Assembly: GCF_030915525.1 (NCBI RefSeq)
Contig: NZ_CP133269.1
Location: 1,141,001 to 1,205,000 of the forward strand
DNA from: Neobacillus sp. PS2-9
GTDB lineage: Bacteria; Bacillota; Bacilli; Bacillales; Cytobacillaceae
Direction of reading: 5' to 3'
DNA: 64,000 bases
Shown: positions 28,418 through 48,580 of the stretch, in pieces
Layout: each line of letters starts with the position of its first letter
Numbering within the stretch: the stretch's first letter is position 1
Notes under the pieces: generated by a model
Told to the model about the DNA's origin: nothing
Database searches by the model: none
The model's input: the letters and a program-made list of their open reading frames with translations, nothing else
Made by a program: the position numbers and the translations under genes

Positions 28418-28427
28418 GAATATGTAT

Positions 28428-28556: not shown

Positions 28557-28557
28557 T

Positions 28558-28613: not shown

Positions 28614-28633
28614 AATGAAGGGGGAGGAAACAT

Positions 28634-30460
28634 ATGACCTATAATCAAAGATTACCACTCTTTGTCTGTATAGATTCTTGTATAGTACTTACTGCTATTT
28701 TTATTAGTTACTTTCTTGTAAACGCGACATTAGATGTAATTACCTTCCCAGCTGTGTTTAGCTCCATAGTTATATTACTAAGCCATCATTACCTATCCTT
28801 TCAATCCAAGTTATATAAAAAAGCTTGGGTGTATGCGAGTGTAGGAGAATTAATAAGCATCATAAAAGTAGAAACGTTTACCATTTTTATTGCAGCCCTG
28901 GTTCAACAGCTTATGTTTCATGAAACCTTTACAAGACTATTAATTGTAACTTGGCTGCTAAACTTGACTTTTATTGGTGGGTCTCGCTTTTGTTGGCGCG
29001 CTTTTCAGGATGCTTTCTTGCATAAAAAAAATAATCAAAAGAAAATCCTCATTGTTGGTGCAGGTTCAGCCGGAATAATGGTTGCCAGACAACTTAACAG
29101 GAAAAATGATTCGAACTTATTGCCTGTGGGCTTTATTGATGATGATCAGAAGAAGCATAAACTTGATATTTTAGGAATCCCTGTCTTGGGTGGAGTTTCA
29201 AAAATTGAAGAAATCGTTAAGAAACTTAAGATTGAAAATATTGTGATTGCCATTCCATCGCTTAATAAGAAGCAATTAAATAAGATCTTTATGGAGTGCG
29301 CTAAGACGAATGCAAAAACACAAATCCTCCCATTGCTCGAGGATTTAATGACGGGGAAGGTTTCAGTTAATCAATTTCGCGATGTACAAGTGGAAGATTT
29401 ATTAGGCAGAGAACCAGTTGAATTAGATATAAATACAATCTCTCAAAATATTACAAATAACGTTATTTTGGTTACAGGAGCAGGTGGTTCAATTGGATCG
29501 GAAATATGCCGCCAAATCGCAAAATTCCAACCAAGACAGTTGGTCCTGCTTGGTCATGGTGAGAATAGCATTTATACCATCGAAATGGAATTAAAAGAAA
29601 ACTATAAAAACAATAAGATAGAGTTCGTACCAGTTATAGCTGACTTACAGGATGAAAAGAAAATGATGGCTGTGATGAGTACCTATCAACCGGATGTTGT
29701 CTATCATGCTGCTGCCCACAAACATGTCCCTCTTATGGAAAAAAACCCGGAAGAGGCAGTGAAAAATAACATCATTGGTACGTTAAATGCAGCAAAAGCA
29801 GCTAGCTGGAATGGGATAAAGACATTCGTGATGATTTCTACTGACAAGGCAGTTAACCCAACAAGTGTAATGGGGGCAACAAAAAGGTTGGCCGAAATGG
29901 TTATCCAAAATATGAATAAAGAAAGTGCTACTAAATTCGTTGCTGTACGTTTTGGAAATGTATTAGGAAGTAGAGGAAGTGTTATTCCGCTCTTTAAAAA
30001 TCAAATTGAAAAAGGTGGTCCCATTACCGTTACACACCCTGATATGGTTCGTTATTTTATGACAATTCCAGAAGCATCGAGGTTGGTATTACAGGCCGGT
30101 GCTCTAGCAAGAGGAGGAGAAATTTTCGTTTTAGACATGGGGGACCCTGTGAAAATTGTAGATTTGGCTAAGAATTTAATAAAACTCTCAGGTAATTCAC
30201 TTGATGATATTGGAATTGAATACACAGGTATGAGACCTGGTGAAAAATTATTTGAAGAATTATTAAAAGAAGAAGAAGTGGAAGAGCACCAAATCTATCC
30301 AAAAATCTATATTGGAAAAACATCTGAGCTATATATGAGGGAAATAGAGGAGCTTATTTCAATCTATGGAAAATTAGAAAAGCAAGAATTAAGAAAACGA
30401 GTTTTAGATATTGCTAATCATAGGATCAAGGAAATGACGATTATGAAAGTACCTATTTAG
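28634..30460 (+). CDS. epsC: Nucleotide-sugar 4,6-dehydratase, membrane type (EpsC/CapD-like)
   Basis: 608 residues. Four N-terminal TM segments, then a Rossmann fold ([14 protein letters not shown]) and an SDR dehydratase domain from about residue 275 with [29 protein letters not shown] and the [21 protein letters not shown] catalytic region, read as Ser/Thr-Asp-Lys type of the FlaA1/WbpM group. Probably converts UDP-GlcNAc to the 4-keto-6-deoxy sugar used by the aminotransferase three genes on. First gene of the locus, behind the leader RNA. Confidence 0.93.
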
Positions 30461-30471
30461 GAGGTGGAATA

Positions 30472-31350
30472 ATGAAGGTTAAAAAGGCCATTATCCCTGC
30501 AGCTGGATTGGGGACAAGATTTCTTCCTGCCACGAAGGCAATGCCAAAAGAAATGCTACCCATTGTCGATAAACCGACCATTCAATATATCGTCGAAGAA
30601 GCAGTCGAATCAGGAATTGAGGATATTATTATTGTCACGGGTAAGGGGAAAAGAGCGATTGAAGACCATTTTGATAACAGTTTTGAATTAGAACATAATC
30701 TTTTCGAAAATGGGAAGTACGAGTTACTAGGTGAAGTTCAAAAATCCTCAAGTCTAGTTGACATCCATTATATTCGACAGAAGGAACCAAAAGGATTAGG
30801 GCATGCTATATGGTGTGCACGAAAGTTTATTGGAGATGAGCCATTTGCTGTGCTACTTGGTGACGATATTGTTAAGGCGGAAAACCCCTGCCTAAAACAA
30901 TTAATGCACCAATATGAACGATACAATGCTTCCATACTTGGTGTTCAACCAGTACCACAATTTGATGTCTCGAGGTATGGAATTGTTGATGGTAAATGTA
31001 TAAGTGATCGATTTTTCAGTGTAAATAGTTTAATAGAAAAACCAAAAGTAGAAGAAGCACCATCAAACCTTGCCATTCTAGGACGATATATATTAAGCCC
31101 GAGAATATTCGATATATTAGGGAATCAAGAGCCTGGCGCCGGTGGTGAAATTCAACTTACCGATGCAATAGAAGTATTAAATCAAAATGAAGCAGTCTAT
31201 GCCTACCACTTTGAAGGTATTAGATATGATGTGGGCGAAAAAATAGGCTTTATTCAAACCAATATTGAATATGCTTTAGAACGTAAGGAATTACGTGGTA
31301 GGTTATTAGAGTATCTGTCTTCTGTATTAGACAAAGAGTTAATAAAGTAA
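30472..31350 (+). CDS. galU: UTP-glucose-1-phosphate uridylyltransferase
   Basis: 292 residues, nucleotidyltransferase fold: [34 protein letters not shown] is the G1P/UTP site (given in parts), with VLLGDDIV (metal Asp) and LIEKPK further on. Makes UDP-glucose for the polymer. 11 bp after epsC with AGGAGGTGG. Paralogue of the general GtaB; its presence in the operon suggests glucose or galactose in the product. Confidence 0.94.
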
Positions 31351-31420
31351 AAACTATTGAGATGAAAACAGAATTAAATTCTCCATCACAACTGCTTAAT
31401 CAAAAAAAGGAAGTGAGTAT

Positions 31421-32035
31421 ATGAAAAGAATGATGGATGTACTTATTTCTTTACTATTGTTTGTTTTGTTCGCTCCAATCCTTTTTATAGTAGCTATTTT
31501 AGTCAAGTATAAGCTTGGTTCTCCGATTCTATTCAGACAACAACGCCCTGGATTGAATGGGAGACCTTTTTTTTTATATAAGTTTAGAACCATGACTGAT
31601 TGGAAGGACAGTAGGGGAGTACTTCTGCCTGATGAAAAGCGCTTAACCTCTTTTGGATCTTTTCTAAGGAGGTTTAGTTTAGATGAGCTGCCACAGCTAA
31701 TGAATGTATTAAAAGGCGATCTAAGCTTAGTGGGTCCTCGGCCACTATTAATGGAATATCTCCCCCTATATACGGAGGAACAAGCAAAAAGGCATTTAGT
31801 TAGACCTGGAATTACAGGATGGGCTCAGGTTCATGGGCGCAATGCCATTACATGGGAGGAAAAGTTTAAACTGGATGTTTGGTATGTGAATCATCAAACA
31901 CTGGTACTTGATATAAAAATTTTATTTCTTACTGTAAAAAAAGTGATTCGATCTGAAGGTATCTCCGAGGATAATCATGTCACAGTTGCTCGATTTACGG
32001 GCACACAAACAAATGACAAAGAGGGGCATGGTTAA
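31421..32035 (+). CDS. epsL: Initiating sugar-1-phosphate transferase (EpsL/WcaJ-type)
   Basis: 204 residues, bacterial sugar transferase family. N-terminal membrane helix (MDVLISLLLFVLFAPILFIVA), then QQRPGLNGRPFFLYKFRTM, SLDELPQLMNVLKGDLSLVGPRPLL and RPGITGWAQVHGRN, all catalytic blocks. Transfers the first sugar phosphate to undecaprenyl phosphate on the cytoplasmic face. The short form lacks extra N-terminal TM segments, as in EpsL and PglC. Confidence 0.93.
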   Translation: MKRMMDVLISLLLFVLFAPILFIVAILVKYKLGSPILFRQQRPGLNGRPFFLYKFRTMTDWKDSRGVLLPDEKRLTSFGSFLRRFSLDELPQLMNVLKGDLSLVGPRPLLMEYLPLYTEEQAKRHLVRPGITGWAQVHGRNAITWEEKFKLDVWYVNHQTLVLDIKILFLTVKKVIRSEGISEDNHVTVARFTGTQTNDKEGHG

Positions 32036-32135
32036 TAATCTAGTAAGCTTGACAAGCAAATGAAGTCTAAAATACTAATCTGAAAATTTAGTAGTGTTCT
32101 CTCTCACAAAGGAAAAAAAGTAGGAGGTGTATGAG

Positions 32136-33296
32136 TTGTTACATACAACCACAGATCGGAGAATATTTCTTTCATCACCACATATGAGCGGTAAGGAAAT
32201 GAATTTTATTAATGAGGCATTTGAAACGAATTGGGTTGCTCCATTAGGGCCAAATGTAGATGCATTTGAAATGGAAGTAGCAGGATATATTGGAATGAAT
32301 GGAGCAGTTGCAGTTAGTTCAGGAACGGCAGCGATCCATTTGGCCCTCTCTTTATTAGATGTCCAAAAAGGCGATACTGTTTTTTGCTCTAGTCTAACAT
32401 TTGTTGCAAGTGCCAATCCCATCTTATATCAAGGCGCGGAGCCTATATTCATTGATTCAGAACGAGATACGTGGAATATGTCACCGATTGCATTAGAAGA
32501 AGCATTAGAAGAAGCGGTTGCTGAAAATAAATTACCTAAAGCAGTAATCATAGTAAATCTTTATGGACAGTCTGCCAAAATGCATGAATTAGTATCTATT
32601 TGTAGGAAGTTTCATGTCCCTATTATTGAAGATGCTGCCGAGTCACTAGGAGCTAAATATAAAGGTAAACCTAGTGGGACATTTGGGGAATTTGGTATCT
32701 TTTCTTTCAATGGAAATAAGATTATTACAACATCAGGCGGAGGCATGCTCGTTTCCAATAATACAGAGGCGTTAAGGCAAGCTCGTTTCCTAGCAACTCA
32801 AGCTAGAGACCCTGCTCCTCATTATCAGCATAGCAAGCTAGGTTATAACTATCGAATGAGTAATATATTGGCGGGAATTGGCAGAAGTCAGTTAGAGGTC
32901 TTGGATGCAAGAATTAATGCTAGAAGAGCAATTTTTAATACCTACCAACAGGAGCTTGCACACATCTCTTCTATTTCTTTCATGCAAGAGTTAGAAGATA
33001 CTTTTTCAACTAGATGGCTGACTGCTATTACGATTAACAAGGAAGAAACCAACGTCTCTCCCAAGGAGTTAATTGCTGCTTTAGAAGAGGAGAATATTGA
33101 AGCGAGGCCTGTTTGGAAACCGCTTCAGTTACAGCCCCTCTTTAATAAAAATAAGTATTATCCACATGCTGAGAACGAAAGTGTGTCCGAAGAATTGTTC
33201 CAAACAGGAATTTGTTTACCCTCAGGTTCAAATTTGACAGTCCAAGAACAATTGCGGGTCATTGAATGTATTAAGAAAACATTCAATAGTTTGTAA
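32136..33296 (+). CDS. epsN: DegT/DnrJ/EryC1/StrS sugar aminotransferase (EpsN-like)
   Basis: 386 residues from TTG 32136; AGGAGGTG at 32122-32129 makes the overlapping GTG 32127 unlikely. PLP fold-I features: VAVSSGTAAIHLAL, EDAAESLGAKY and the Lys region FSFNGNKIITTSGGGM. Adds an amino group at C4 of the keto sugar from EpsC. The acetyltransferase (EpsM/PglD) that usually follows in a bacillosamine-type pathway is missing from this locus. Confidence 0.92.
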   Translation: MLHTTTDRRIFLSSPHMSGKEMNFINEAFETNWVAPLGPNVDAFEMEVAGYIGMNGAVAVSSGTAAIHLALSLLDVQKGDTVFCSSLTFVASANPILYQGAEPIFIDSERDTWNMSPIALEEALEEAVAENKLPKAVIIVNLYGQSAKMHELVSICRKFHVPIIEDAAESLGAKYKGKPSGTFGEFGIFSFNGNKIITTSGGGMLVSNNTEALRQARFLATQARDPAPHYQHSKLGYNYRMSNILAGIGRSQLEVLDARINARRAIFNTYQQELAHISSISFMQELEDTFSTRWLTAITINKEETNVSPKELIAALEEENIEARPVWKPLQLQPLFNKNKYYPHAENESVSEELFQTGICLPSGSNLTVQEQLRVIECIKKTFNSL

Positions 33297-33371
33297 AAAC
33301 CATGATAAATTTGGGGGAAATGTAATGTAAACGTGATTATCAAATAAATAAAAAATAAAGAGGTAAACATA

Positions 33372-33725
33372 ATGATTGGAAAAAATATAGCGAGACTACG
33401 AAACCAAAGAGGTTACTCCTTATCGGAGCTGGCCGAACTTACGAATATATCAAAATCCTATTTAAGTAACATTGAGCGTAATCTTAATAAGAACCCCTCG
33501 CTTCAAATAATGATAAAGATTGCGTCAGTGTTAAAGGTTGATCTTATCACACTTTTACAAACAGGTCTTGAAGAGGATCGTAATTTGTTTATGGAAAAAG
33601 AATGGTTCGATTTTGTACGGGAACTAAAGGAATCGGGGCTTGAAAAGGAACAAATACAGCAATATAAAACAGTAATAGAATTTATAAGATGGAAAAATGA
33701 AAATTCAGAAACTAAACAAAGATAA
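33372..33725 (+). CDS. SinR-like HTH regulator
   Basis: 117 residues. N-terminal XRE helix-turn-helix IGKNIARLRNQRGYSLSELA then TNISKSYLSNIERNLNKNPS, very close to SinR. The C-terminal helices (EWFDFVRELKESGLEKEQIQ then IEFIRWKNEN) match the SinR oligomerisation hook. In B. subtilis SinR represses eps from outside the operon; here the gene lies inside the operon whose promoter carries two SinR-type operators, which suggests autoregulation. No SinI-like antagonist seen. Confidence 0.9.
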   Translation: MIGKNIARLRNQRGYSLSELAELTNISKSYLSNIERNLNKNPSLQIMIKIASVLKVDLITLLQTGLEEDRNLFMEKEWFDFVRELKESGLEKEQIQQYKTVIEFIRWKNENSETKQR

Positions 33726-33752
33726 AGAAATGACAGGTAGGTTGGAGGGAAA

Positions 33753-34592: not shown

Positions 34593-34627
34593 TTTAGTTC
34601 ATGCGGATTACAATACTGGAGGAAATT

Positions 34628-36044: not shown

Positions 36045-36108
36045 CGCTTAAGATGGTTGGATAGGAAATCTAGTAAAGTATCTAAATTAAAAAAGGAGGA
36101 TGTATATT

Positions 36109-36873: not shown

Positions 36874-36912
36874 TATTACCGTGAAATTAAAAAAGGAAGG
36901 TGCAGGTGAGGA

Positions 36913-38190
36913 GTGAACTATTCACTAGAAGTAATCGATAGTCATAAAAATAGTAATATCTTGTTTACAATGGCACTCTTTTCTATGGCTATATTACTAC
37001 ATCAATCCCAAGTTATTTTTGGGGTAAATATTTCATTTGCAGATTTATTTTGTGTCCTTATTTTTATCGTTTTCATACTTAATAAACAGTTGTTAATACC
37101 GGTAACACCAGTTATATATTTTTTAGTTGTTTCCATTGTGGTTTTGTTAACTTCTATTTTCTATATTCCATCACAATTTATGTATACTCCAAACCCAATG
37201 GAAATTGTTAGTGACTATGCAAAATTGGCAGCTATATTGGTCTATTTTATTTTTGGATATAATTTGTCCAGAAACGATCATATGGTAGATATTTTAAAGT
37301 GGTACTCTTTTTTCGGTATGTTAATTGGGGGAATAGGATTAGTTTTTACTGTGCTAAACATTCATACAGATATTCTATTTTATGGAGGGGTTAGGTATAA
37401 AGGACTAATGATTGACCCTAACTACTTTTCCATCCTTCAAGTAACGTCTCTAGTTTATATTACTAGGGTGAAGAGCATAAAAATGAAGTATAAGTATGCC
37501 GCAGTTCTCATTACAGCATTAGCAGTTTTAATATCAGGCTCAAAAACAGGAATCCTTACATTTTCTAGTTATGTAATGCTGAGGGTAATAGAATATTTAT
37601 TAACTTACAAGAAAAAAGCATTCTCAGTTGTTGTTCAGTTATTTACAATTGGTCTAATAATTTTGGCCATTCCCATAGTATTTAGTTTTCTGCAGAATTT
37701 GGTGAGTTTCCTCAGTACTACTGTACCTTCCTTTGCGAGAATTGAGCCTCTTTTTACTGATTTTAATGGCGCACTTTCAGAAAATGGTTCTGGAAGGAAT
37801 ATTACTTGGAAGGTTGCTTTACAAATCATTCAACTCTCCCCAGTAATAGGGGTTGGAATTGGAACGTACACGACTATTGCCGTTGAAATGTTCCATCAAA
37901 GTGATATCTCACATAACACCTTTTTACAGTTGTCTGCTGAGTGGGGAATTCCTTTAGCTTTTACCTTCTTTGCCTATGTATTTTTTATCATAGGGAAGGC
38001 TTCAACTGTGTCGGATTCACCCGATTTTGAGAATAACCTGATTTTCCGAGATATTATTATCATCCTATTGATTGGGTCAATGGCTATTTCATTGAATAAT
38101 GCGCGAATCCTATGGCTGGTTTTTGGGGCGCTAGTTTCTTCTTTAGATAGGAATCAAATATGCAAAAAAACGGGGGGGAAATATGTTTAA
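36913..38190 (+). CDS. Wzy-like polymerase / O-antigen ligase family membrane protein
   Basis: 425 residues from GTG 36913. About ten to twelve hydrophobic segments, with a larger extracellular loop (residues about 260-300) and the O-antigen-ligase region GSGRNITWKVALQIIQLSPVIGVGIGTY followed by HNTFLQLSAEWG. Expected to polymerise repeat units outside the membrane. Its stop overlaps the next gene by 8 bp. Confidence 0.85.
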   Translation: MNYSLEVIDSHKNSNILFTMALFSMAILLHQSQVIFGVNISFADLFCVLIFIVFILNKQLLIPVTPVIYFLVVSIVVLLTSIFYIPSQFMYTPNPMEIVSDYAKLAAILVYFIFGYNLSRNDHMVDILKWYSFFGMLIGGIGLVFTVLNIHTDILFYGGVRYKGLMIDPNYFSILQVTSLVYITRVKSIKMKYKYAAVLITALAVLISGSKTGILTFSSYVMLRVIEYLLTYKKKAFSVVVQLFTIGLIILAIPIVFSFLQNLVSFLSTTVPSFARIEPLFTDFNGALSENGSGRNITWKVALQIIQLSPVIGVGIGTYTTIAVEMFHQSDISHNTFLQLSAEWGIPLAFTFFAYVFFIIGKASTVSDSPDFENNLIFRDIIIILLIGSMAISLNNARILWLVFGALVSSLDRNQICKKTGGKYV

Positions 38191-39313
38191 GAAGATTTAC
38201 CTCTTCTTAAAAAGAAAGAGGGAGATACTTAAAGGCTTTCAAAGAAACACAAAGTATATGTGTGCTGGGATTTACGTTTATGATGATTCTTTAAAGTATA
38301 TTACGAGGAATGATTCGTACACTAAAAATAGAGCCTTGCAAATTTTTCAGAATAATTATTATCAAGCTGCTATCAAGGTTTTTATTTTTTTATTAAGAAA
38401 GACATTCTTTAGAAAAAAGGTAGAAATTGTGGAACCTGCAGAGCAAAAAAATGAGTTTTCTGGGAGTGTTTATAGGCCAGTTAGAAGCTCGAATGGCTAT
38501 AACGACAGTAAGATATTTGATTTATCGCGGAACCAGGTACTGTCCATTTTTTCAAATAAACAAGAATATCAATCTGTGCTTAGTATTTACCAAAGTTTTA
38601 AAAAGTTTTTTCCGATGCCAGCCATCTTACAGGCAGATGCTGAGCAACTTATAATAATGGAGGAACTAGTTAATTTTGAACAAAATCATACGTGGATAGA
38701 AGAAGATTACCTGTTTGTTATGGAAGATGTCTTTGAAAGAAATATAAATTATTTTAAGGCTTGCGTGGAAAATGGAATTCAATCATCTAGTAGTCCTACA
38801 GATTTAATTTCTCAAATAAAAATGAACGCAGTAATAGAACCCATTAGGAATAAAATTAATCCTGAATTACTAGATGTAAAGTTTCCCTGCGTAAAACTGC
38901 ACGGTGATCTTTGGACATCAAATACCCTGCTCGTTAAGGAAGGAAAGAGTCATATTTGTTACATAGATTGGGAATATTCAAGAGAGTATATATTTTTCTA
39001 TGATCTATTTAATATGATGTGGCTTGAGGTGTATGTGAATAATAATCATCTTTATATTCATAAGTATATAAAAGGTGAATACAATAATTATTTTTATAAG
39101 TTATTTTCTTTATTTAATTTATCGTTTGATGAAAAGTTAAAACTTGACTATATAATTATTTATTTCCTGAATTTTTTTACAGAGCGGGGCATTCATTTAG
39201 GGACGGTTGAGCAAGTAGATATCTTAGACAAATTTAAAAGAATGCTAGATAGATTAAGGGAGATGATCAAAAATCAGTCAAAGCAGCTAATATCTGTAGA
39301 CAATGATGATTAG
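38183..39313 (+). CDS. Aminoglycoside-phosphotransferase-fold kinase of unknown substrate
   Basis: 376 residues. The kinase catalytic core is visible late in the protein: H240-G-D (KLHGDLWTSN, Asn247) and IDWEYS (Asp262), as in APH/choline kinase folds. The N-terminal half is basic and unlike any family I know. In this setting it may phosphorylate a sugar or a lipid-linked intermediate, for example to add phosphocholine-like groups; that is a guess. Very low GC, like its neighbours. Overlaps the Wzy-like gene. Confidence 0.75.
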   Translation: MFKKIYLFLKRKREILKGFQRNTKYMCAGIYVYDDSLKYITRNDSYTKNRALQIFQNNYYQAAIKVFIFLLRKTFFRKKVEIVEPAEQKNEFSGSVYRPVRSSNGYNDSKIFDLSRNQVLSIFSNKQEYQSVLSIYQSFKKFFPMPAILQADAEQLIIMEELVNFEQNHTWIEEDYLFVMEDVFERNINYFKACVENGIQSSSSPTDLISQIKMNAVIEPIRNKINPELLDVKFPCVKLHGDLWTSNTLLVKEGKSHICYIDWEYSREYIFFYDLFNMMWLEVYVNNNHLYIHKYIKGEYNNYFYKLFSLFNLSFDEKLKLDYIIIYFLNFFTERGIHLGTVEQVDILDKFKRMLDRLREMIKNQSKQLISVDNDD

Positions 39314-39324
39314 TGGGGATAACC

Positions 39325-40866
39325 ATGAAAAAAACGGTTCTTATTTTAATGTTAGTAACGATCATTTCGAAAGTTCTAGGATTTGCAAGAGATATAGTAT
39401 TATCCTATTTCTATGGTGCTTCTGATATAAGTGATGTTTACTTAATTTCCTTGACAATTCCTACTGTCATATTTGCCTTTGTGGGTAAAGGGATATCTGT
39501 TGGGTTTATTCCTATGTATACCCGAATAGAAAGTAAAAATGGAACAGAAAGAGCGAATCAGTATACCAATAACGTTATTAATTTTGTACTTATAGTATGT
39601 ACGGCTATTTTTATAGTAGGATTATTTTTTACAGAGCCTATTGTAAAATTATTTGCTTCTGGCTTTGAAGGTAAGACACTAGAACTGACAGTAACATTTA
39701 CTCGAATCACGTTAATAGGGGTTTATTTTACCGGGGTTAATTATGTGTATTTAGCATATCTCCAAATTAAAGGTGTATTTGTCATTCCAGCACTTATGGG
39801 GTTACCAGCAAATATTATTATGGTTGCTTCTATCATTGTTAGCTCACATAAGAATATCTACTTATTATCAGTAGGAAGTTTAATAGCAATTTTTTCACAA
39901 TTTTTACTTCTATTCATTTTTAGTTATAAAAGTAATTATAGATATAAACCAAAATTAGATTATCGAGATGAAAATATTAGGAAAATGGCCATTTTAGCAT
40001 TACCGGCTATATTAGGTACTTCAGTTACACAGATTAATTTATTAATTGACCGCACAATAGCTTCTAAGCTAGAAGTGGGAGGAATAGCGGCATTAAATTA
40101 TGCAAGTACATTAAGTGTAGTCATAATTGGGATTTTTGTTTTATCGATTAGTTCCGTACTTTATCCCAAAATATCTAAATTGTCTGCTGATAATAAAATT
40201 ACAGAAATGAAAACAGTATTATCTGGGGCAATTGGTGCTGTCAACATACTCGTGTTACCTGCGGCTGTTGGATGTATGATTTTTTCTGGACCGATCGTTG
40301 AGTTTTTATATGGTAGAGGGAATTTTGACTCACATGCTTTGAATATGACATCAAATGCACTTTTCTATTTCTCAATTGGAATTGTTGGGTTAAGTCATAG
40401 GGAAATTTTATCGAATACCTTTTATTCTCTTCAAGATACGAAAACTCCTATGATAAACGCGGCCATAGCAATGATTTTAAATATTGTTTTGAATTTGACC
40501 TTATCCAAGTATTTAGGAATCGGCGGATTAGCCCTGGCAACAAGTATATCTACTATCTTCTGCACAATTCTCTTAGTATTTAATCTCAGAAAAAGAATAG
40601 GGAATCTTGGTCTAACGGGTGTGTCAATTTCCTTTTTGAAAATATTAATTGCGTCACTAGCTATGGGGGGACTAAGTAAATATATTTATAGCTTACTACT
40701 TAATAAGTTTAATCTAGATATCTCTTTAATAATTTCAGTATGTATAGGTGCAGTTGTGTACTTTATACTTATTTACTTATTTAAAATTAAGGAAATGAAA
40801 ATGATAATTGGTGAAATAAAAGGGAAATTGAGACCATTAACGGAAAGTGAAGCTGCTGAAATATAA
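39325..40866 (+). CDS. MurJ/MviN-family lipid-linked oligosaccharide flippase
   Basis: 513 residues from ATG 39325 with GTGGGGAT before it. 14 predicted TM segments; the start KKTVLILMLVTIISKVLGFARDIVLSYFYG and FVGKGISVGFIPMY are typical of MurJ. Further on FLYGRGNFD and TFYSLQDTKTPM match the family. Probably moves the lipid-linked repeat unit across the membrane, in the place where most Wzy loci have a Wzx protein. Confidence 0.9.
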   Translation: MKKTVLILMLVTIISKVLGFARDIVLSYFYGASDISDVYLISLTIPTVIFAFVGKGISVGFIPMYTRIESKNGTERANQYTNNVINFVLIVCTAIFIVGLFFTEPIVKLFASGFEGKTLELTVTFTRITLIGVYFTGVNYVYLAYLQIKGVFVIPALMGLPANIIMVASIIVSSHKNIYLLSVGSLIAIFSQFLLLFIFSYKSNYRYKPKLDYRDENIRKMAILALPAILGTSVTQINLLIDRTIASKLEVGGIAALNYASTLSVVIIGIFVLSISSVLYPKISKLSADNKITEMKTVLSGAIGAVNILVLPAAVGCMIFSGPIVEFLYGRGNFDSHALNMTSNALFYFSIGIVGLSHREILSNTFYSLQDTKTPMINAAIAMILNIVLNLTLSKYLGIGGLALATSISTIFCTILLVFNLRKRIGNLGLTGVSISFLKILIASLAMGGLSKYIYSLLLNKFNLDISLIISVCIGAVVYFILIYLFKIKEMKMIIGEIKGKLRPLTESEAAEI

Positions 40867-40922
40867 AAATAGAGGTGTAATGATAAAGGGAGTACTGGAA
40901 AAATACGGGAAAGAGGAGTCCG

Positions 40923-42119
40923 ATGGTGAAAATTTTATATGTTGCCACAATATCTAATATGATAAATGCATTTTTGATTCCTCATATTAAAGTTTTAGTC
41001 GAACAAGGAAACGAGGTAGGATTGGCATTCAATGAAGATAAAGAAATCAATCCTGAATTAATTAAATTAGGATGTAAAATTCATCATGTTAAGTTCCAAA
41101 GGAATCCGTTTAACAAAAATAACTTTTATGCATTAAAAGAGATAAAAAAGATTATTTCAACAGAAGGGTATAAATTAGTACATGTACATGCACCTGTTGC
41201 TTCATTAATAACCCGATGGGCATGTAAAAATATGTCTGAAGTCACAATGCTTTATACTGCACATGGATTTCATTTTTTTAAGGGTGCTCCAAAAATAAAT
41301 TGGGTTATATACTATTCACTTGAGAAAATTGCAGCTAAATGGACCGATGGAATCATTACCATGAATGATGAGGACTTTTCCTCAGCTAAGAAACTAAAAT
41401 TAAGAAAAAGGAATTCAGTCTACAAAGTACATGGTATTGGGCTCAATTTGACTAGATTTAAACCGTCAAATCCTAAAGAGAAAAGTACATTAAGAAAAGA
41501 AAATGATTATAATTTAGAAGATTTTATTATTATAAATGTTGGAGAACTATGTTACAGAAAGCACCAAGATTTGTTGATACAGGCAGTAAGCATTGTTAGT
41601 AAGAAGATAAAAAATATTAAACTTTTACTTGTTGGAGAAGGAGATCAACTCAGCAATTACAAGCAGTTGGTCCAAACACTAGAATTGGAGAACCATGTGG
41701 ATTTTTTAGGTTACCGGCAAGATATTAATGCACTTATGAGTATTTCTGATCTTGCAGTTTCAACTTCTAGGCAGGAAGGTCTCCCGGTTAATGTTATGGA
41801 GGCAATGGCTGTTGGGTTACCAATAATTGTTACAGACTGCCGTGGGAATCGGGACTTAATATCAAATGATGTTAATGGGATTGTGGTAGGTGATAATGAT
41901 TCACTAGCATGTGCGAATGCAATTGAGAAACTGTATAATTCACAAGAATTAAGGGAGAAGTTTGCTGATAAAAATAAGGAACTTATTCAAACATATTCAA
42001 TTGAAAATGTAATAACAGAAATGGAACAAATATATTCCAACATAATGATCAATAAAGAATCAAAATTAATAAATAAAATAAAAAAAGAACAATATTCTCA
42101 GCAGGGCTCACAAAACTAA
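40923..42119 (+). CDS. Glycosyltransferase family 4 (EpsD-like)
   Basis: 398 residues, GT-B fold. N-terminal half VKILYVATISNMINAFLIPHIK with HVHAPVASLITRWACK and TAHGFHFFKGAP; C-terminal donor site NVGELCYRKHQDLLIQA, LVGEGDQL and the EX7E-like block SRQEGLPVNVMEAMAVGLPI. The order and motifs are like EpsD of B. subtilis. Adds a sugar to the lipid-linked intermediate. Confidence 0.9.
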   Translation: MVKILYVATISNMINAFLIPHIKVLVEQGNEVGLAFNEDKEINPELIKLGCKIHHVKFQRNPFNKNNFYALKEIKKIISTEGYKLVHVHAPVASLITRWACKNMSEVTMLYTAHGFHFFKGAPKINWVIYYSLEKIAAKWTDGIITMNDEDFSSAKKLKLRKRNSVYKVHGIGLNLTRFKPSNPKEKSTLRKENDYNLEDFIIINVGELCYRKHQDLLIQAVSIVSKKIKNIKLLLVGEGDQLSNYKQLVQTLELENHVDFLGYRQDINALMSISDLAVSTSRQEGLPVNVMEAMAVGLPIIVTDCRGNRDLISNDVNGIVVGDNDSLACANAIEKLYNSQELREKFADKNKELIQTYSIENVITEMEQIYSNIMINKESKLINKIKKEQYSQQGSQN

Positions 42120-42267
42120 TTCACACTCTTACAAATTTTATAGAGGAAATTCCTAATGAATTAAGGTACATTCAGGGGTTTTAACGGTATTTTTTTATTA
42201 CACCGTTCTTTATAATGAATTATTTGTACGTTTCTAATTATATTAACCCCTTAAGGAGGGATATAAA

Positions 42268-43182
42268 ATGAATTCTTCCCCACGAACTGCTTATATTTTA
42301 CAAATCCATAAAAATCCAGATCAAGTGAATAAGTTTATCAATCAACTAATTTCAGGCGATCAGGCGGATGTATTTGTTCATATTGATAAGCGAAATTATG
42401 AAGACATGAATAAAAAGATAATCAAAAGTCCAAATGTTAAAGTTTTACAAAAAAGTATTGTTTGTGAGTGGGGACATATTAGCCAAGTAGAAACGACTAT
42501 CCATTTGTTGAGGGAAGTATTAGCCTCCAAAAATAAGTATGATTTTGTTTGCTTAAGAAGTGGGCAAGATTTACTTGTAAAGGATGGATTTAAGGATTTC
42601 TTATTGAATAATAAAGGTAAGATATTTATGGATTTCATTAATATCACATGGAAAAACGAAGGTGCAATGAGGATAAATTGGCCTAATATTACAAGAAAAA
42701 GGTATACTTCCGCACATCCTTTTAGAATTTACAGAAGAACAATCAAAGCTTTGTACGATAAGGGAATAAATTTATTCCCCAATACTAATTATTGGCCTAA
42801 GGAATACTCATTTTATTGCGGTTCGCAATGGTTTACGATACCTTCTAATGTTGCAAATTACATCATCGAGTTTTTAGATAATAATACATGGTATCTCCAA
42901 TACTTTAAAAATACTTACACTCCTGATGAGTGGTTTTTCCATACTTTAATTATGAATTCACATTTTAAATGTGACGTGGTGAATAATAATCTTTTGTATC
43001 TAAGAATGGGGGAAAAACTAAGTGAGAGAAATTCCCCTGTGTACTTAACAAGTAAGGATATTAACATAATAGAGAATTCAAATCAATTCTTCGCAAGGAA
43101 ATTTGATGATACTATTGATTATTCAGTTGTGGAGTATTTTGCAAAAAAGGCTTGCTTTGTTAGAGGTAAAGCAGCTGTCTAA
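42268..43182 (+). CDS. GT14-type beta-1,6-N-acetylglucosaminyltransferase-like protein
   Basis: 304 residues. The core-2/I-branching family pattern is present: AYILQIHKNPDQV, VFVHIDKRN, WGHISQVETTIHLL, FVCLRSGQDLLV, GSQWFTIPSNVANYI and TPDEWFFHTLI (catalytic Glu region). Probably adds a branch sugar. Preceded by a 148-bp gap with only a weak imperfect hairpin near 42150-42180; TAAGGAGGG precedes the start. Confidence 0.88.
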   Translation: MNSSPRTAYILQIHKNPDQVNKFINQLISGDQADVFVHIDKRNYEDMNKKIIKSPNVKVLQKSIVCEWGHISQVETTIHLLREVLASKNKYDFVCLRSGQDLLVKDGFKDFLLNNKGKIFMDFINITWKNEGAMRINWPNITRKRYTSAHPFRIYRRTIKALYDKGINLFPNTNYWPKEYSFYCGSQWFTIPSNVANYIIEFLDNNTWYLQYFKNTYTPDEWFFHTLIMNSHFKCDVVNNNLLYLRMGEKLSERNSPVYLTSKDINIIENSNQFFARKFDDTIDYSVVEYFAKKACFVRGKAAV

Positions 43183-43223
43183 ATGAAGTTGATTAATATT
43201 TGTTAAAGAAGTGGGAGGCTCAT

Positions 43224-44057
43224 ATGTTAACGTTGAATTACAAAAGAAGTATTTTCCAAATCTGTGAAGAGATAGGTTCTGGTAGCTATGAGAATCAAAC
43301 AATAAAACCAGATATCACCATTAGATTTGAGCTTTTGTTTTCTCCACCTAAGAATTCCGAACTTAATAAAAGGAATTTTTCCTTTCGTCTTTTGATCCCA
43401 AACTATCTAATAAATTTAGCTGAAGAAGAAAGTCAAATTTTTAACAAGATACACAAAAATACCCGGTATAAAATAAACAGAGCAATAAATAGAGATGATT
43501 TACTTTACTTTGAGCATACAAATCCAACTGACTCTGAAATTGAGGAATTTAAAATATTTTTTAACCCATTTGCGAAGGAAAGAAATATTCGAACTTGTGA
43601 TGTCAATAAACTGAAGGAATTAAGAGACCAAGGGGCATTAGTCATGTCATTTGTTACAGATAAGGACCGTCGGTTTCTATGTTATCATGTTTATCAAAAA
43701 GATGATCAACAAGGATATTTAATATACTCTGCATCTAGGCGCTATAATCATGACGATTCCGGTTTTCGTAACTTAATAGGAAGAGCTAATAGATATTTGC
43801 ACTGGAAAGATATTCAGAGCTTTAAACAAAAAGGATGTAAATGGTATAACTTTGGTGGAAAAATAATGAATGAGGAAGACATAGAGGGGCAAAACGTAAA
43901 TAAGTTCAAACTAGAGTTCGGACCCATAACTGGATTTGACTCAAGGATTTTTTATTCCAATAGTCTAATTGGAAAGTTAGGAATTATTCCGATACATTTT
44001 AAGTGGAGAAAAAGTCCTGAATATAAATATAGTAAAAATTTTGTGTCGACAAAATAA
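43224..44057 (+). CDS. FemAB/GNAT-like acyltransferase
   Basis: 277 residues from ATG 43224 with GTGGGAGG upstream (TTG 43200 in frame is less likely). The middle has KIHKNTRYKINRAINRDD, a FemAB-type acceptor helix, then VMSFVTDKDRRFLCYHVY and YLHWKDIQSFKQKGCKWYNFGG, matching the second GNAT fold of FemAB/LRR-like transferases. Likely transfers an amino-acyl or acyl group to the polymer or its precursor. First gene of the proposed decoration module. Confidence 0.75.
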   Translation: MLTLNYKRSIFQICEEIGSGSYENQTIKPDITIRFELLFSPPKNSELNKRNFSFRLLIPNYLINLAEEESQIFNKIHKNTRYKINRAINRDDLLYFEHTNPTDSEIEEFKIFFNPFAKERNIRTCDVNKLKELRDQGALVMSFVTDKDRRFLCYHVYQKDDQQGYLIYSASRRYNHDDSGFRNLIGRANRYLHWKDIQSFKQKGCKWYNFGGKIMNEEDIEGQNVNKFKLEFGPITGFDSRIFYSNSLIGKLGIIPIHFKWRKSPEYKYSKNFVSTK

Positions 44058-44078
44058 TTATTGAAATAAGGTGAATAC

Positions 44079-45329
44079 ATGTTTTTAACATACCATCAAC
44101 TAGAAGGCCTAGACAAAGAGTTTGGGTCTTCTTTTTTCTTATTAGATGTAGATAAATTAAAAAGTAATTATCAAAAAATTGACGTTGCATTTAGGAGTAG
44201 ATACCAAAACTTTATTATTGGTTATTCGTATAAAACGAACTACTTGCCTTACTTATGCAAGGAAATGAATCAATTAGGAGCCTATGCCGAGGTTGTCTCT
44301 AGATTAGAATATGACTTAGCTGTAAAAATAGGAGTTCCTCCAGAAAAGATTATCTTTAATGGTCCTTTAAAATTTTCTGAAGATATTGAAACAGCTCTAG
44401 AAAATGGAAGTATGTTAAACATTGATTCGCTCTATGAAATAGACTATGTGACAGACTACTGCTTAAAGAATAAACAAAATCTTGTAAAAGTAGGTGTAAG
44501 AGTTAACTTCGACCTTTCTTCTAATGGGGAAAGTCCACTTCAGGAAGGATATGAGGTTAGTAGATTTGGAATCTGTGTTTCAAATGGAGACTTTCATTCT
44601 GCTATACAGAGGCTTAAGGAATTAGAAAATCTTAATATTGTTGGCTTACATGGTCATTTCTCCACGAAAGAAAGAAAAGTCGAAACATATGGGACTATTG
44701 CGAGGAAACTATGCGAACTAGCCAAGCAGTATATCCCAGACACTATTGAATATATAGACATAGGAGGTGGCATATATGGAGAACTACCTGCCTCCTTTAA
44801 ACTGCAAACACCAAGTTTTGTGGATTATGCTGATACGATTTGTCGTATTATGAACAACGAATTTGAAGGTTATGTAAAAAAGCCATACTTAATATTGGAA
44901 CCTGGAATTTCCATGGTAGCAAATGCATTTACCTTTATTGCAAAAGTAATCGATACAAAGACAATACAAGAAAACTCATTTGTTCTAATAGATGGCAGCG
45001 TTCACAATATTAAGCCTACCATGCATAAAAGAAATCTTCCTATGCGTCATGTGTTCCAAAATCCAGAACGAAACTCTTACGACACATATAACATAGTAGG
45101 ATATACCTGCATGGAAAAGGATTATTTAGCATACAAAGTAAAAGGGCTATTACCCATAAAAGACGATTATGTTATTTTCGAGAATGTTGGTGCTTATACG
45201 GTTGTCTTTAATCCACCATTTATTAAGGAAAGACCAGGCATTGTGGCAACAGTTAACGGTGAATTTTTCACTGTACGAAGAAAGGAAAGTTTGAAGGAAT
45301 TTTTTAATGAGGATCTTTATGTATTTTAA
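44079..45329 (+). CDS. Fold-III PLP decarboxylase/racemase-like enzyme (DAP decarboxylase family, altered site)
   Basis: 416 residues. PLP Lys52 lies in GYSYKTNYLPYLC, the phosphate-binding glycines in YIDIGGGIYGE, and His in LHGHFSTKE. GYTCMEKDYL gives the catalytic Cys and Asp of alanine-racemase-fold decarboxylases. The substrate Arg of the EPGR motif is replaced: here it reads LEPGISMVA. So it is unlikely to be LysA for diaminopimelate and may decarboxylate or otherwise modify another amino acid. It lies between a FemAB-like and an ATP-grasp gene. Confidence 0.85.
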   Translation: MFLTYHQLEGLDKEFGSSFFLLDVDKLKSNYQKIDVAFRSRYQNFIIGYSYKTNYLPYLCKEMNQLGAYAEVVSRLEYDLAVKIGVPPEKIIFNGPLKFSEDIETALENGSMLNIDSLYEIDYVTDYCLKNKQNLVKVGVRVNFDLSSNGESPLQEGYEVSRFGICVSNGDFHSAIQRLKELENLNIVGLHGHFSTKERKVETYGTIARKLCELAKQYIPDTIEYIDIGGGIYGELPASFKLQTPSFVDYADTICRIMNNEFEGYVKKPYLILEPGISMVANAFTFIAKVIDTKTIQENSFVLIDGSVHNIKPTMHKRNLPMRHVFQNPERNSYDTYNIVGYTCMEKDYLAYKVKGLLPIKDDYVIFENVGAYTVVFNPPFIKERPGIVATVNGEFFTVRRKESLKEFFNEDLYVF

Positions 45330-45353
45330 ATAACTATGATTGAGGGATAGAGT

Positions 45354-46361
45354 ATGAATATTTTACTATGTAGTGCGGGGAGAAGAGTGAAATTAGTTAA
45401 ATATTTTAAAGAAGAACTGAAGAAAATAGGGGGGAAAGTAGTAGCTGCAGATTGTGATCCTTCCGCCCCAGCCTTGTATCTTGCAGACTCAGCAGAAATA
45501 GTGCCCCGTATCACCCATCCAGAATATATCCAACACATAAAACAGGTTTGCAAAAAGCATAAAATCAATGCCGTGTTAAGTCTGATTGATCCCGAATTAA
45601 GCCTACTAGCAGAGAATAAGATTGAGTTTGAAAAGGAGAATATAAACATAATTGTTTCTAATAAAGATGTAGTAAATATCTGTTTCGACAAATTCCTCAC
45701 CTATACTTTTTTAACATCACACAACTTGCCGGCAGTCCCCACATACGTAAAGATCGATGATATACTCTCTGAAATTGAAAAGAATCAAATTCAGTTTCCT
45801 TTAATTATAAAGCCGAGAACTGGCAGTGCAAGTCTAGGAATCTCGATTATTCATTCTTTGGAAGAGTTACACGCTCTTTGGAAGGATACGGGTGAGTTGA
45901 TTGCCCAGCCATTTATTGTGGGGGATGAATATGGAGTAGATTGTTATGTTGACTTTATTAACTATAAAACTACCAATATTTTCTGCAAAAAGAAAATAAA
46001 AATGAGAGCAGGAGAAACGGACAAATCAATCGCCGTGAATGATCCTGAACTTCTTCATTTAATTGAAAAAACGCTAAATGAACTAAAAGCAATAGGACCT
46101 GTAGATATTGATTGTTTTAAAACGGATAGCGAGTACATTATTTCAGAAATTAATCCAAGGTTCGGTGGAGGATATCTTCATGCACATGAAGAAGGTCAAA
46201 ATTTTGTGAAAAATATAGTAAATAATTTAGCGGGCATGTGTAATTCGGTTGATATAGGAAATTATTCTGATGGATCTGTCATGATAAAGTTTGATGATGT
46301 ATTAATTTTAAGAGGGATAGATCAAGTTCCATTTCACCATCATTTACAAAAATCCGTATAA
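45354..46361 (+). CDS. ATP-grasp ligase (carbamoyl-phosphate-synthase-like)
   Basis: 335 residues. Pre-ATP-grasp fold NILLCSAGRRVKLVKYF with LSLIDPELSLLAE, then ATP-grasp: FPLIIKPRTGSASLGI, IAQPFIVGDEYGVDCYVD and metal site GPVDIDCF..SEINPRFGGGY. Forms a C-N bond through an acyl phosphate. Substrates unknown; by context an amino acid or amine from the preceding PLP enzyme joined to a carboxyl group. Confidence 0.88.
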   Translation: MNILLCSAGRRVKLVKYFKEELKKIGGKVVAADCDPSAPALYLADSAEIVPRITHPEYIQHIKQVCKKHKINAVLSLIDPELSLLAENKIEFEKENINIIVSNKDVVNICFDKFLTYTFLTSHNLPAVPTYVKIDDILSEIEKNQIQFPLIIKPRTGSASLGISIIHSLEELHALWKDTGELIAQPFIVGDEYGVDCYVDFINYKTTNIFCKKKIKMRAGETDKSIAVNDPELLHLIEKTLNELKAIGPVDIDCFKTDSEYIISEINPRFGGGYLHAHEEGQNFVKNIVNNLAGMCNSVDIGNYSDGSVMIKFDDVLILRGIDQVPFHHHLQKSV

Positions 46362-46374
46362 AAAGGGGATTGTT

Positions 46375-47472
46375 ATGTACGAGGTTTTTTCTTTTCAGCA
46401 GAAAACATTTTGGGAAGAAAAGTTAAACACACTTTCCAAAAAGGATATCTTCTATCACCCTTCATATTCTGGTTTGTATCAAAGCATGGGGGATGGAGAA
46501 CCTCACTTATTTTTCTATGAAGATCAGAGTGGAAAAAAGGTAGGCTATGTCTTTCTAAAAAGAAAGATTAAGGGATTGCCTTTTGCCAAACATGAAACGA
46601 ATGATGACATTTACGATATTATTACACCTTCATACGGCTATGGGGGCCCATTATACGACATGGAAGAAAAACAGCTAGTATCGGCATTTAGAAAAGAGTT
46701 TGAAGAATACTGTCAAAAAGAAAATATAATATGTGAATTTATTAGGTTTCATCCCTTGCTGCAGAATTGCCGGATAATGGAGGAATTTGTAGACACCTCT
46801 TTTGATCGGGAGACTATTTTTATAGATTTGACGAAAACAGAAAAGGAAATTTTTAATGGTTATCATACTAACCATAAAAGAAATATTAACAAAGCAAATA
46901 AAAAAGAGTTAGTGTTCAGAGTTTTTAAAAATGAAGAGGCACTTGAAGTGGTAGAAACCTTTTACCAATTATATAAAGAAACAATGGATAAATTGAATGC
47001 TTCTACCTATTCTTACTTTTCTACTAGTTATATAAAAGATTTATTATCTCATTTAAGTCAGTATTCAATTATTGGTGCTGTTTTTTATAAAGATCAGATG
47101 GTAGCCGCCTCTATGTGTCTGTATGAAGGCAATTCATTGCATTATCATTTGGGTTGTTCCAATAAGGAATATTTACATTTAGGTGTGAACACCTTTCTTC
47201 TTCATCAATTAGGCATTTGGGGGAAAAGAGCGGGATTAGAAAGATTCCATTTGGGTGGAGGCCATAAAGGAAGAGATTCTCTTTTTCAATTTAAATCCCG
47301 TTTTAATCCTAATGGAGTACTCCCATTTTATATTGGTAAGAAAGTCCATAATCCTGTTTTATATAATCAACTGATACAAAAATGGGAGAACTATTATGAA
47401 GATGAAGTTAATAAAACTTATTTTCCAGCCTATCGTTCTGTTCCCAAAAAAACTGTATCAATATCAGGGTAA
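46375..47472 (+). CDS. FemAB-family acyltransferase
   Basis: 365 residues with two GNAT folds. Acceptor-side YHTNHKRNINKANKKELVF, and the second fold VVETFYQLYKETMDKLNAS, IIGAVFYKDQMVAASMCLYE and LERFHLGGGHKGRDSLFQFKS. These are hallmarks of the FemAB/BioF2-like transferases that move aminoacyl or acyl groups. Last gene of the locus; distinct from the FemAB-like gene at 43224. Confidence 0.82.
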   Translation: MYEVFSFQQKTFWEEKLNTLSKKDIFYHPSYSGLYQSMGDGEPHLFFYEDQSGKKVGYVFLKRKIKGLPFAKHETNDDIYDIITPSYGYGGPLYDMEEKQLVSAFRKEFEEYCQKENIICEFIRFHPLLQNCRIMEEFVDTSFDRETIFIDLTKTEKEIFNGYHTNHKRNINKANKKELVFRVFKNEEALEVVETFYQLYKETMDKLNASTYSYFSTSYIKDLLSHLSQYSIIGAVFYKDQMVAASMCLYEGNSLHYHLGCSNKEYLHLGVNTFLLHQLGIWGKRAGLERFHLGGGHKGRDSLFQFKSRFNPNGVLPFYIGKKVHNPVLYNQLIQKWENYYEDEVNKTYFPAYRSVPKKTVSISG

Positions 47473-47478
47473 GAATAA

Positions 47479-47512
47479 TAACAGCCATCTGTCCGTTGAC
47501 AAATGGCTGTTA
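47479..47512. terminator. Hairpin between convergent genes, terminator-like without T-run
   Basis: Perfect 10-bp stem TAACAGCCAT / ATGGCTGTTA with a 14-base loop at the end of the exopolysaccharide locus. No T-run on either side, so termination would need another factor. Confidence 0.5.
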
Positions 47513-47521
47513 CACTAGAAT

Positions 47522-48580
47522 TTACTCATGCAAAAACTTCACACAAACCGGATAAGGCACCACTATATCAGACTGAATTAACGTTAGTGTTCCAGTTCCC
47601 TCATCCCGTGAATAAAGCACAAGATTCCCCGACTCCTGATTCGAAGCTACAATAAACTTCTCGCTCGGATCTAGAGCAAAATCCCTCGGCCAGTCACCTT
47701 TAGTTAAAACATGTTCTACAAAACTTAACTCTCCAGTTTCAGGATTCACACTAAAAACGGCGATACTATTATGTCCACGATTCCCCGCATAGACAAAACG
47801 TCCATCAGATGAAATATGAATGGCACTGCCTTGATTGTTTTCAGTGAAGTCTTCAGGAAGTGTGGAGATATACTGCTTTTCTGTAAAATGGCCATTTTCC
47901 TCGTGATAGGTTAACACAATGACTTCAGAGCTAAACTCTGTCATTACATAGGCAATTTTTCCATTCGGATGAAACACTAAATGCCTTGGACCGCTTCCAG
48001 CCTTTAATGGCAGAAGCTTTACTTTCGTAAGTGTTCCGTCACTGTTTACCGCATATGTGATTAAGGCATCAATCCCTAATTCCACGACAGCTAGATATTT
48101 TTCATCTGGTGTAAGTCCGGCATAATGAGTATGAGGTTTTTCCTGCCTTGGATCTGGGCCAGAACCTTCATGAATCATGATAGAAGCAGCTGGTAAAATC
48201 GAACCATCCTCTTTGTTTAGTAAATGAGATTCTACCAAACCTTTATGGTAGTTAGCACCAAACACATATCGATTCTGGCTGTCTACACTAACATGACAAG
48301 GAGATGCCCCGGCTGAAAGCTCACGATTAATGGCAGTTAAGCTACCATCTTCATGAATGGAAAAAGCAGCAAGCCCGCCGTTTTCTCCTTCTTTGACAAC
48401 CGAATAAAGGTAGCGATTATCTTTGCTAATGTTTACATATGTAGGATTTTCTAACTCTGCAGCAATCGTAACATTCTCTATCTTTGCGTCTTCCGTATTT
48501 AAGGTAAAGGAATAGATTCCTTTACTCTCTCCTTTTGTGTATGTGCCAATATACCCCATATAATGATTCGTATTTGTCAT
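47522..48580 (-). CDS. Lactonase family beta-propeller (6-phosphogluconolactonase type)
   Basis: 352 residues with repeated beta-propeller blades. Starts YMGYIGTYTKGESKGIYSF; later PHTHYAGLTPDEKYLAVVELG, GSGPRHLVFHPNGKIAYVM and GDWPRDFALDPSEKFIVASN are the Pgl-type (YkgB/YbhE) landmarks. Expected to hydrolyse 6-phosphogluconolactone in the pentose phosphate route; other lactones are possible. Single gene. Confidence 0.88.
   Translation of the reverse strand: MTNTNHYMGYIGTYTKGESKGIYSFTLNTEDAKIENVTIAAELENPTYVNISKDNRYLYSVVKEGENGGLAAFSIHEDGSLTAINRELSAGASPCHVSVDSQNRYVFGANYHKGLVESHLLNKEDGSILPAASIMIHEGSGPDPRQEKPHTHYAGLTPDEKYLAVVELGIDALITYAVNSDGTLTKVKLLPLKAGSGPRHLVFHPNGKIAYVMTEFSSEVIVLTYHEENGHFTEKQYISTLPEDFTENNQGSAIHISSDGRFVYAGNRGHNSIAVFSVNPETGELSFVEHVLTKGDWPRDFALDPSEKFIVASNQESGNLVLYSRDEGTGTLTLIQSDIVVPYPVCVKFLHE

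Follow-up and report, generated by a model that had tools for sequence, protein, structure and literature searches.

The exopolysaccharide (EPS) locus of Neobacillus sp. PS2-9 raises the question of how the 4-amino group of a UDP-activated sugar is acylated in a locus that contains no acetyltransferase for this step. The locus was identified in a stretch of 64,000 nucleotides (contig NZ_CP133269.1, positions 1,141,001 to 1,205,000 of the forward strand), referred to here as the window, in which it spans about 28634-47472. In Bacillus subtilis, EpsC, EpsN and EpsM make UDP-N,N'-diacetylbacillosamine (UDP-diNAcBac), EpsL moves the sugar to the lipid carrier, and diNAcBac is the first sugar of the EPS, as described in PMC10653937. 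Compared by gene type, the window locus contains the same dehydratase, aminotransferase and phosphoglycosyl transferase (PGT), but it lacks EpsM and has a pyridoxal phosphate (PLP) enzyme of fold type III, an ATP-grasp ligase, two FemAB-like transferases (FemAB-1 and FemAB-2) and a Branch-family glycosyltransferase (GT). The pair of PLP enzyme and ATP-grasp ligase, referred to as the cassette, is rather likely to be an alternative to the acetyltransferase EpsM/PglD, acting on the UDP-4-amino sugar. In a literature search, partly directed at lasso clusters and at Neisseria, judged from titles and abstract openings and with subscription papers largely uncovered, no description of this gene set or of the PLP version was found.

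An earlier sequence-only reading had recognized FemAB-1, the PLP enzyme, the ATP-grasp ligase and FemAB-2 as consecutive genes with short gaps, and this was confirmed by four open reading frames (ORFs) on the plus strand with Pfam matches, separated by 21, 24 and 13 bp. The Branch gene, located 41 bp upstream of FemAB-1 and the commoner partner of the PLP gene, was left out, and the absence of EpsM was overlooked.

Distribution of the acetyltransferase and the cassette

At E<=1e-20, no hexapeptide acetyltransferase (EpsM/PglD/NeuD) was identified up to 45 kb from the EpsN gene of the window, and tblastn with 22 acetyltransferase queries gave no match in the window at 28000-48000. In the host family, which was searched for EpsN, the NeuD/PglD-type acetyltransferase, ATP-grasp and FemAB-2, 99 EPS-type EpsN genes (>=60% identity) are present in 98 of the 193 genomes. 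Sorted by distance, 43 of these loci have an acetyltransferase within 1.5 kb, 16 a FemAB gene, 25 a PLP gene within 45 kb and 15 none of these, with zero overlap between the classes (Fisher p = 4e-8 for acetyltransferase versus PLP, a raw value from related loci).

The slot itself was read as the two genes before and the one after EpsN in the 99 fetched neighbourhoods, with precedence in the order acetyltransferase, formyltransferase, FemAB and ATP-grasp. An acetyltransferase was found in 46 loci, FemAB in 15, a formyltransferase in two (genomes G062 and G050) and ATP-grasp without PLP in another two (G068 and G065), where ATP-grasp and a HAD phosphatase sit between PglC and EpsN. The remainder consists of 24 PLP loci without an acyl-type gene in the slot, two loci with ATP-grasp elsewhere and no PLP, seven loci with none of these, and one PLP locus (G158) with a further ATP-grasp gene after EpsN. 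In locus L160, the formyltransferase gene (6256-7074) is located between PglC and EpsN.

Since the ORF picker can favour antisense ORFs, the neighbourhoods were also examined by tblastn with the 22 acetyltransferase queries. All 46 acetyltransferase loci were recovered, and G068 was added together with G076, G034 and, weakly, G029 from the seven loci with none; no match was obtained around any of the 25 PLP genes, for which neighbourhoods of about 8 kb were covered. Depending on the method, an acetyltransferase is present beside EpsN in 43-48 of the 99 loci, and in 0 of the 25 PLP loci. EPS-type EpsN is present in 26 of the 28 host-family genomes with a PLP relative; in G014, the PLP gene lies on another contig.

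A second family of 39 genomes (f37), by inference Brevibacillaceae, contains EpsN in 17 genomes and the PLP gene in 16. The PLP match begins where the EpsN match ends in all 16 (overlap or at most 54 bp), and the PLP gene was found in none of the 22 EpsN-less genomes (Fisher 4.5e-10, uncorrected). By tblastn, no acetyltransferase was detected in the 16 PLP loci, fetched at 12-15 kb, and the single EpsN locus without PLP has the arrangement PglC-acetyltransferase-EpsN. Acetyltransferase and cassette are therefore again mutually exclusive. This does not apply to FemAB, which is located ahead of EpsN in 12 of the 16 PLP loci and is not in four; in these 12, FemAB, PLP and ATP-grasp recur together. 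FemAB as an exclusive alternative to PLP was rejected as a rule, since the two do not overlap in the 25 host-family loci but occur together in these 12.

PLP relatives were identified in 28 of the 193 host-family genomes, the window genome included, and in 19 genomes of a class-level sample of 398. An ATP-grasp gene lies at most three genes downstream of PLP in 25 of the 27 other host-family loci; of the two without it, L056 contains a divergent copy (38% identity) and L057 a remnant that includes a stop. The co-occurrence of all four genes, on which the sequence-only reading depended, was found in four of these 27 loci and in Heyndrickxia camelliae (L075), and FemAB is not invariant: any FemAB gene is near PLP in 10 of the 27, and 16 of 25 host-family loci and four of 16 loci of the second family combine PLP and ATP-grasp with no FemAB nearby. 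A Branch gene is present within three genes upstream of PLP in 22 of the 27. The core consists of PLP and ATP-grasp, with FemAB being optional and Branch usually located ahead of them in the host family.

A scan of GTDB contigs with two peptide patterns matched 347 stretches, of which 329 encode a PLP relative. The best 79 loci, which were fetched, belong to Bacillaceae, Brevibacillus, Sporosarcina, Desulfuromonadales, Planctomycetes, Cyanobacteria, Bacteroidetes, Methylococcales and others. ATP-grasp is among the next two genes after PLP in 56 of the 76 loci in which the ORF was located; within flanks of 10 kb or less, PglC is present in 41 of the 76, PglC or a 4-aminotransferase in 56, and neither in 20. 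In the Desulfuromonadales locus L114, PLP, ATP-grasp, PglC, EpsN and PglF are all found together. The cassette tracks the UDP-4-amino-sugar pathway (EpsC/PglF, EpsN/PglE, EpsL/PglC). A plasmid search gave 12 records, all at 23.8-26.2% identity.

In several loci (L064 at 6903-8234, L090, L091, L093, L094, L098 and L284), a PLP homologue is accompanied by RmlA, RmlB, a DesI-like aminotransferase and an ATP-grasp protein of another subfamily. A corresponding scheme may operate on dTDP-4-amino sugars.

The PLP enzyme, the ATP-grasp ligase and the FemAB proteins

The PLP protein belongs to the two-domain fold-III family of alanine racemase and diaminopimelate decarboxylase (DAPDC), with matches to both PF02784 and PF00278; K52, H191 and C344, its Schiff-base Lys, His and catalytic Cys, are invariant in 65 of 65 aligned members. 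Its best NCBIfam score was obtained for lysA (190.5 bits), below the cut-off of 297.9, and a true lysA with 531.9 bits is present elsewhere in the window genome. Aligned to this LysA, R315 is replaced by I, V, L or M in 65 of 65 members, R352 by K in 63 and Y356 by H in 52, and E384 is located opposite M345 of the window protein; we take these Arg, Arg, Tyr and Glu positions of LysA to be the diaminopimelate-binding residues. The assignment of the gene as LysA or as a polyamine enzyme was rejected on the basis of the missed cut-off, the genome's own lysA and the changed pocket residues.

With the structural model of the PLP protein (pLDDT 94), Foldseek gave TM values of 0.84-0.88 to BtrK (7ru7), LysA (1tuf) and FslC (7kh2), with 23-26% identity in the structural alignments and E values (3.0e-35, 1.1e-34 and 1.4e-34, respectively) that are too close to rank. 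FslC is the best solved relative by profile and BtrK by model, and a score of 155.6 against 500 bits for the FslC model places the protein outside FslC. According to their entry names, FslC is a citrylornithine decarboxylase and BtrK decarboxylates the glutamyl-carrier protein. In the butirosin and rhizoferrin systems, the ligases BtrJ and FslA conjugate the amino acid ahead of decarboxylation by BtrK and FslC. Since FslC and BtrK act on ligated substrates, an already ligated substrate is plausible for the PLP enzyme, which may by analogy work in the same manner on a conjugate. The comparison with these systems covered their fold-III PLP decarboxylases.

In the ATP-grasp ligase, residues K113, K153, D251, D253, N267 and R269 are invariant in 51 members. 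The top fold match of its model (pLDDT 92.7) is 2pn1 with 40% identity, an uncharacterised protein labelled as a carbamoylphosphate synthase subunit by its depositors, followed by biotin carboxylases and PurK; the L-amino acid ligase RizA appears in 16th place. This fold search does not settle the reaction. The ligase also occurs without the fold-III enzyme: in genome G151 its partner is a fold-II PLP enzyme of the D-cysteine desulfhydrase/CuyA family, and in G112 it has no PLP partner. These two variants identify the ligase as the constant part.

Locus L148 (14143-16661) contains PglC, ATP-grasp and, in place of the fold-III enzyme, a PLP enzyme of fold type II (CuyA/D-cysteine desulfhydrase family) between the two.

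For FemAB-1, 10 of 10 aligned family members match PF02388 (E<=0.01; best 7.4e-9), and comparison of its profile with FemAB-2 gave 95.5% (hhalign). On both grounds it was accepted as a FemAB protein despite its own sub-threshold score.

Organization of the EPS locus

The locus begins with the genes for a PglF-like dehydratase, GalU, a PglC-like PGT, an EpsN/LegC-like aminotransferase, a helix-turn-helix (HTH) protein and a GDSL-type protein. These are followed by Wzz, a tyrosine kinase, CpsB, Wzy, an unknown protein with a sub-threshold APH match and a MurJ-family flippase. After a GT4 and the Branch-family GT, the tandem of FemAB-1, PLP, ATP-grasp and FemAB-2 forms the end of the locus. The features discussed are collected in the table.

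Table. Features of the EPS locus and its downstream border in the window, with the basis of each assignment.
Feature	Position	Strand	Basis
UDP-GlcNAc 4,6-dehydratase, PglF/EpsC type	28634..30460	+	PF02719 423 bits; PseB 199.6 bits, under equivalog cut-off
GalU, UTP-glucose-1-phosphate uridylyltransferase	30472..31350	+	TIGR01099 411.8 bits (cut-off 326.8)
Small phosphoglycosyl transferase, PglC/EpsL type	31421..32035	+	PF02397 220 bits
'EpsM slot' between PglC and EpsN, no room for a gene	32036..32126	+	ORF list; 99-locus slot survey; tblastn
UDP-4-keto-sugar aminotransferase, EpsN/PglE/LegC type	32127..33296	+	TIGR04181 391.3 bits (cut-off 420); TIGR03588 259.8 bits (cut-off 423.5)
SinR-like HTH protein, directly after EpsN	33372..33725	+	Translation judged by eye
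Branch-family (GT14-type) glycosyltransferase	42268..43182	+	PF02485 73.2 bits
FemAB-like transferase 1	43224..44057	+	PF02388 19.9 bits (cut-off 24); family alignment; hhalign
Fold-III PLP decarboxylase homologue (DAPDC/FslC/BtrK clan)	44079..45329	+	PF02784 104.1 bits; PF00278 41.6 bits
ATP-grasp ligase (PylC-like N domain, PRK12767)	45354..46361	+	PylC-like_N 130.8 bits; ATP-grasp_3 59.4 bits; NF009406 404.7 bits (cut-off 271)
FemAB-like transferase 2	46375..47472	+	PF13480 45.2 bits; PF02388 42.3 bits; both above cut-off
16-pair hairpin between convergent EPS operon and lactonase gene	47478..47513	-	Terminator-like only on the - strand (strand of the lactonase gene)
Lactonase-family gene, convergent with EPS locus	47522-48580	-	

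Judged by eye, a purine-rich stretch precedes each of the four ATG start codons of the tandem. For FemAB-1, the start was placed at the ATG at 43224 with GGGAGG upstream; the mechanical ORF start is a TTG at 43200. At the place of the SinR-like HTH gene, an ORF of 111-118 amino acids is present in many of the surveyed EpsN loci. A similar lactonase gene was identified near the cassette in 10 of the 27 other host-family loci, which suggests a fixed site for variable EPS loci.

In locus L083 (1568-8783), and by similarity in L088, L040 and L053, a lasso-peptide cluster is located upstream of Branch-PLP-ATP-grasp-NeuD, between these genes and EpsN. It consists of precursor-like ORFs, a sub-cut-off cyclase homologue, PqqD-type and B2 proteins over cut-off, an HprK-like kinase and an ABC exporter. 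A role of the cassette in lasso-peptide tailoring was considered for G155, G133 and G158 and rejected; EpsN is located 19-21 kb away in the same locus, and the lasso cluster is therefore read as lying inside the EPS locus.

Proposed route and competing explanations

A precedent for the exchange of acetyltransferase and ATP-grasp enzyme is Neisseria PglB2, an ATP-grasp/phosphoglycosyl transferase. It produces a glyceramido sugar, and PglB2 and the acetyltransferase form PglB exclude each other, as described in PMC11130364 and PMC6959607. Likened by this described role, PglB2 (GATDH) and the window locus both employ ATP-grasp in a 4-amino trideoxyhexose pathway instead of an acetyltransferase, which was found beside EpsN in 0 of 25 and 0 of 16 PLP loci of the two families. 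They differ in that the window functions are separate proteins and that a PLP decarboxylase is added. Given PglB2, the principle is known, and the decarboxylase is the new element.

In loci L149 (4605-8088) and L153 (9604-13074), PglC, ATP-grasp, HAD phosphatase and EpsN follow one another consecutively. This arrangement is perhaps a glyceramido (PglB2-like) route in Gram-positives.

Several observations weigh against a replacement of the EpsM step by the cassette. In the host family, the PLP gene is located 0.2-26 kb from EpsN and is mostly non-adjacent. A tree built from the 99 EpsN proteins requires 8 or more changes of the PLP label, five of them forced by supported branches, so that the cassette was gained or lost several times; of the independent pairs on this tree, five are supported and 1-2 informative, with every informative pair agreeing with the expectation (sign test p 0.5), and the exclusion in the host family alone is not significant when corrected for relatedness. 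A NeuD-type acetyltransferase directly follows ATP-grasp in G133, G155 and G158, where the new amine or the sugar might be its substrate, and G068 contains ATP-grasp in the slot plus an acetyltransferase located a few genes further along. The window genome has an unlinked acetyltransferase (G000:C1:422017), which lies about 750 kb away and next to a second EpsN-like gene, and G179 has one on another contig, so that acetylation could take place in trans in both genomes. In Planctomycetes, loci with PLP next to PglC but without an adjacent ATP-grasp were found, several of them with the order PglC-PLP followed by a GNAT protein and with ATP-grasp distant or not seen. With RizA only in 16th place and carboxylases and PurK-like proteins nearer, the ATP-grasp fold is no proof of an amide ligase.

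A competing explanation is an action of the cassette on a later sugar. The decarboxylated amino acid would be joined to an amino or acid group of a residue that Branch has added, and EpsM would be absent only as a reflection of few EPS lineages. The Branch gene upstream in 22 of 27 loci, the clustering of the cassette state on the EpsN tree and the non-significant phylogeny-aware test are in line with this, but the second family yielded no Branch call in its 16 PLP loci, in which PLP nevertheless abuts EpsN throughout, and acetyl- and formyltransferases, FemAB and ATP-grasp with HAD phosphatase all occupy the EpsN-adjacent place; we regard this explanation as unlikely. The sequence-only reading, in which FemAB moves aminoacyl groups to the polymer or lipid-linked unit and PLP and ATP-grasp supply an unusual amino acid, can draw on the FemAB genes near PLP in 10 of 27 loci and within the operon in 12 of 16. 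It is improbable in view of the 16 of 25 and four of 16 cassette loci without a nearby FemAB, and of the 15 loci with FemAB beside EpsN and no PLP. Its proposal of a module for an amino-acid-derived group was kept, because the recurring genes fit the making and attachment of such a group as far as their sequences indicate; the likelier target is the UDP-activated 4-amino sugar at the EpsM step.

The HS:2 capsule system of Campylobacter jejuni includes a PLP-dependent serine-phosphate decarboxylase. Transferred to the window locus, the PLP enzyme would make an amine and ATP-grasp would couple it to the carboxyl group of a uronic acid. According to PMC11800379, the capsule ATP-grasp domain forms such amides with ethanolamine-phosphate or serinol-phosphate, an amide decoration (Cj1438C, Cj1435) of the kind proposed here. 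There, the acceptor is a uronic carboxyl and the ATP-grasp domain belongs to another family, being TupA-like as compared to PylC_N/PRK12767 here. A UDP-sugar 6-dehydrogenase, by which the locus would supply the uronic acid, was found by eye within 45 kb of PLP in just one of 25 genomes (G149), and HS:2-type amidation is disfavoured, with slightly lower prospects than the FemAB-based transfer. It is very improbable that the PLP gene encodes a displaced enzyme of lysine or polyamine metabolism unlinked to EPS; lysA as its best NCBIfam score speaks for this, while the missed lysA cut-off, the true lysA elsewhere, the changed pocket and the linkage to EpsN speak against it.

For the replacement of EpsM by the cassette, the observed gene content, linkage, replacement pattern and conserved catalytic residues are available, from which we infer acceptor, acyl group, order of steps and the roles of FemAB and Branch. 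The EpsC-type dehydratase and the EpsN-type aminotransferase would produce UDP-2-acetamido-4-amino-2,4,6-trideoxyglucose, and the ATP-grasp ligase would link its 4-amino group to the carboxyl group of an amino acid, replacing the EpsM step. The PLP enzyme would strip the alpha-carboxylate. It could do so once the conjugate is ligated, in the manner of BtrK and FslC, or act beforehand on the free amino acid. Since alpha-decarboxylation must leave a carboxyl group for the amide, Asp, Glu or a similar diacid would be the substrate, and the predicted product is an N4-(omega-aminoacyl) sugar, with beta-alanyl or 4-aminobutanoyl as first guesses. PglC/EpsL would transfer the N4-acylated sugar to undecaprenyl phosphate as the first EPS sugar. 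For the FemAB proteins, the probable task is acylation of the new amine or of a different amine in the repeat, and Branch probably adds the next sugar or a side sugar. In its most specific form, the amino acid would be decarboxylated where it sits, amide-bonded to the UDP-4-amino sugar, and the outcome would be a bacillosamine with a free primary amine, with FemAB as an optional further capping and the EpsN-adjacent place as a swappable acylation slot for acetyl, formyl, FemAB, ATP-grasp with HAD phosphatase or ATP-grasp with PLP; this version is put forward tentatively, with less than even chances. The preparation of the UDP-4-amino sugar is described in PMC10653937, which makes a ligase assay practical.

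If the replacement of EpsM by the cassette is correct, the first sugar of a slime polysaccharide would be capped by an amino-acid-derived group, which would provide a new chemical handle on the polymer, and a testable function would be gained for a broad enzyme family with 329 relatives. If other Bacillaceae and Brevibacillus swap the acetyl group for an amino-acid-derived group, their matrices would differ in charge and chemistry at a defined site.

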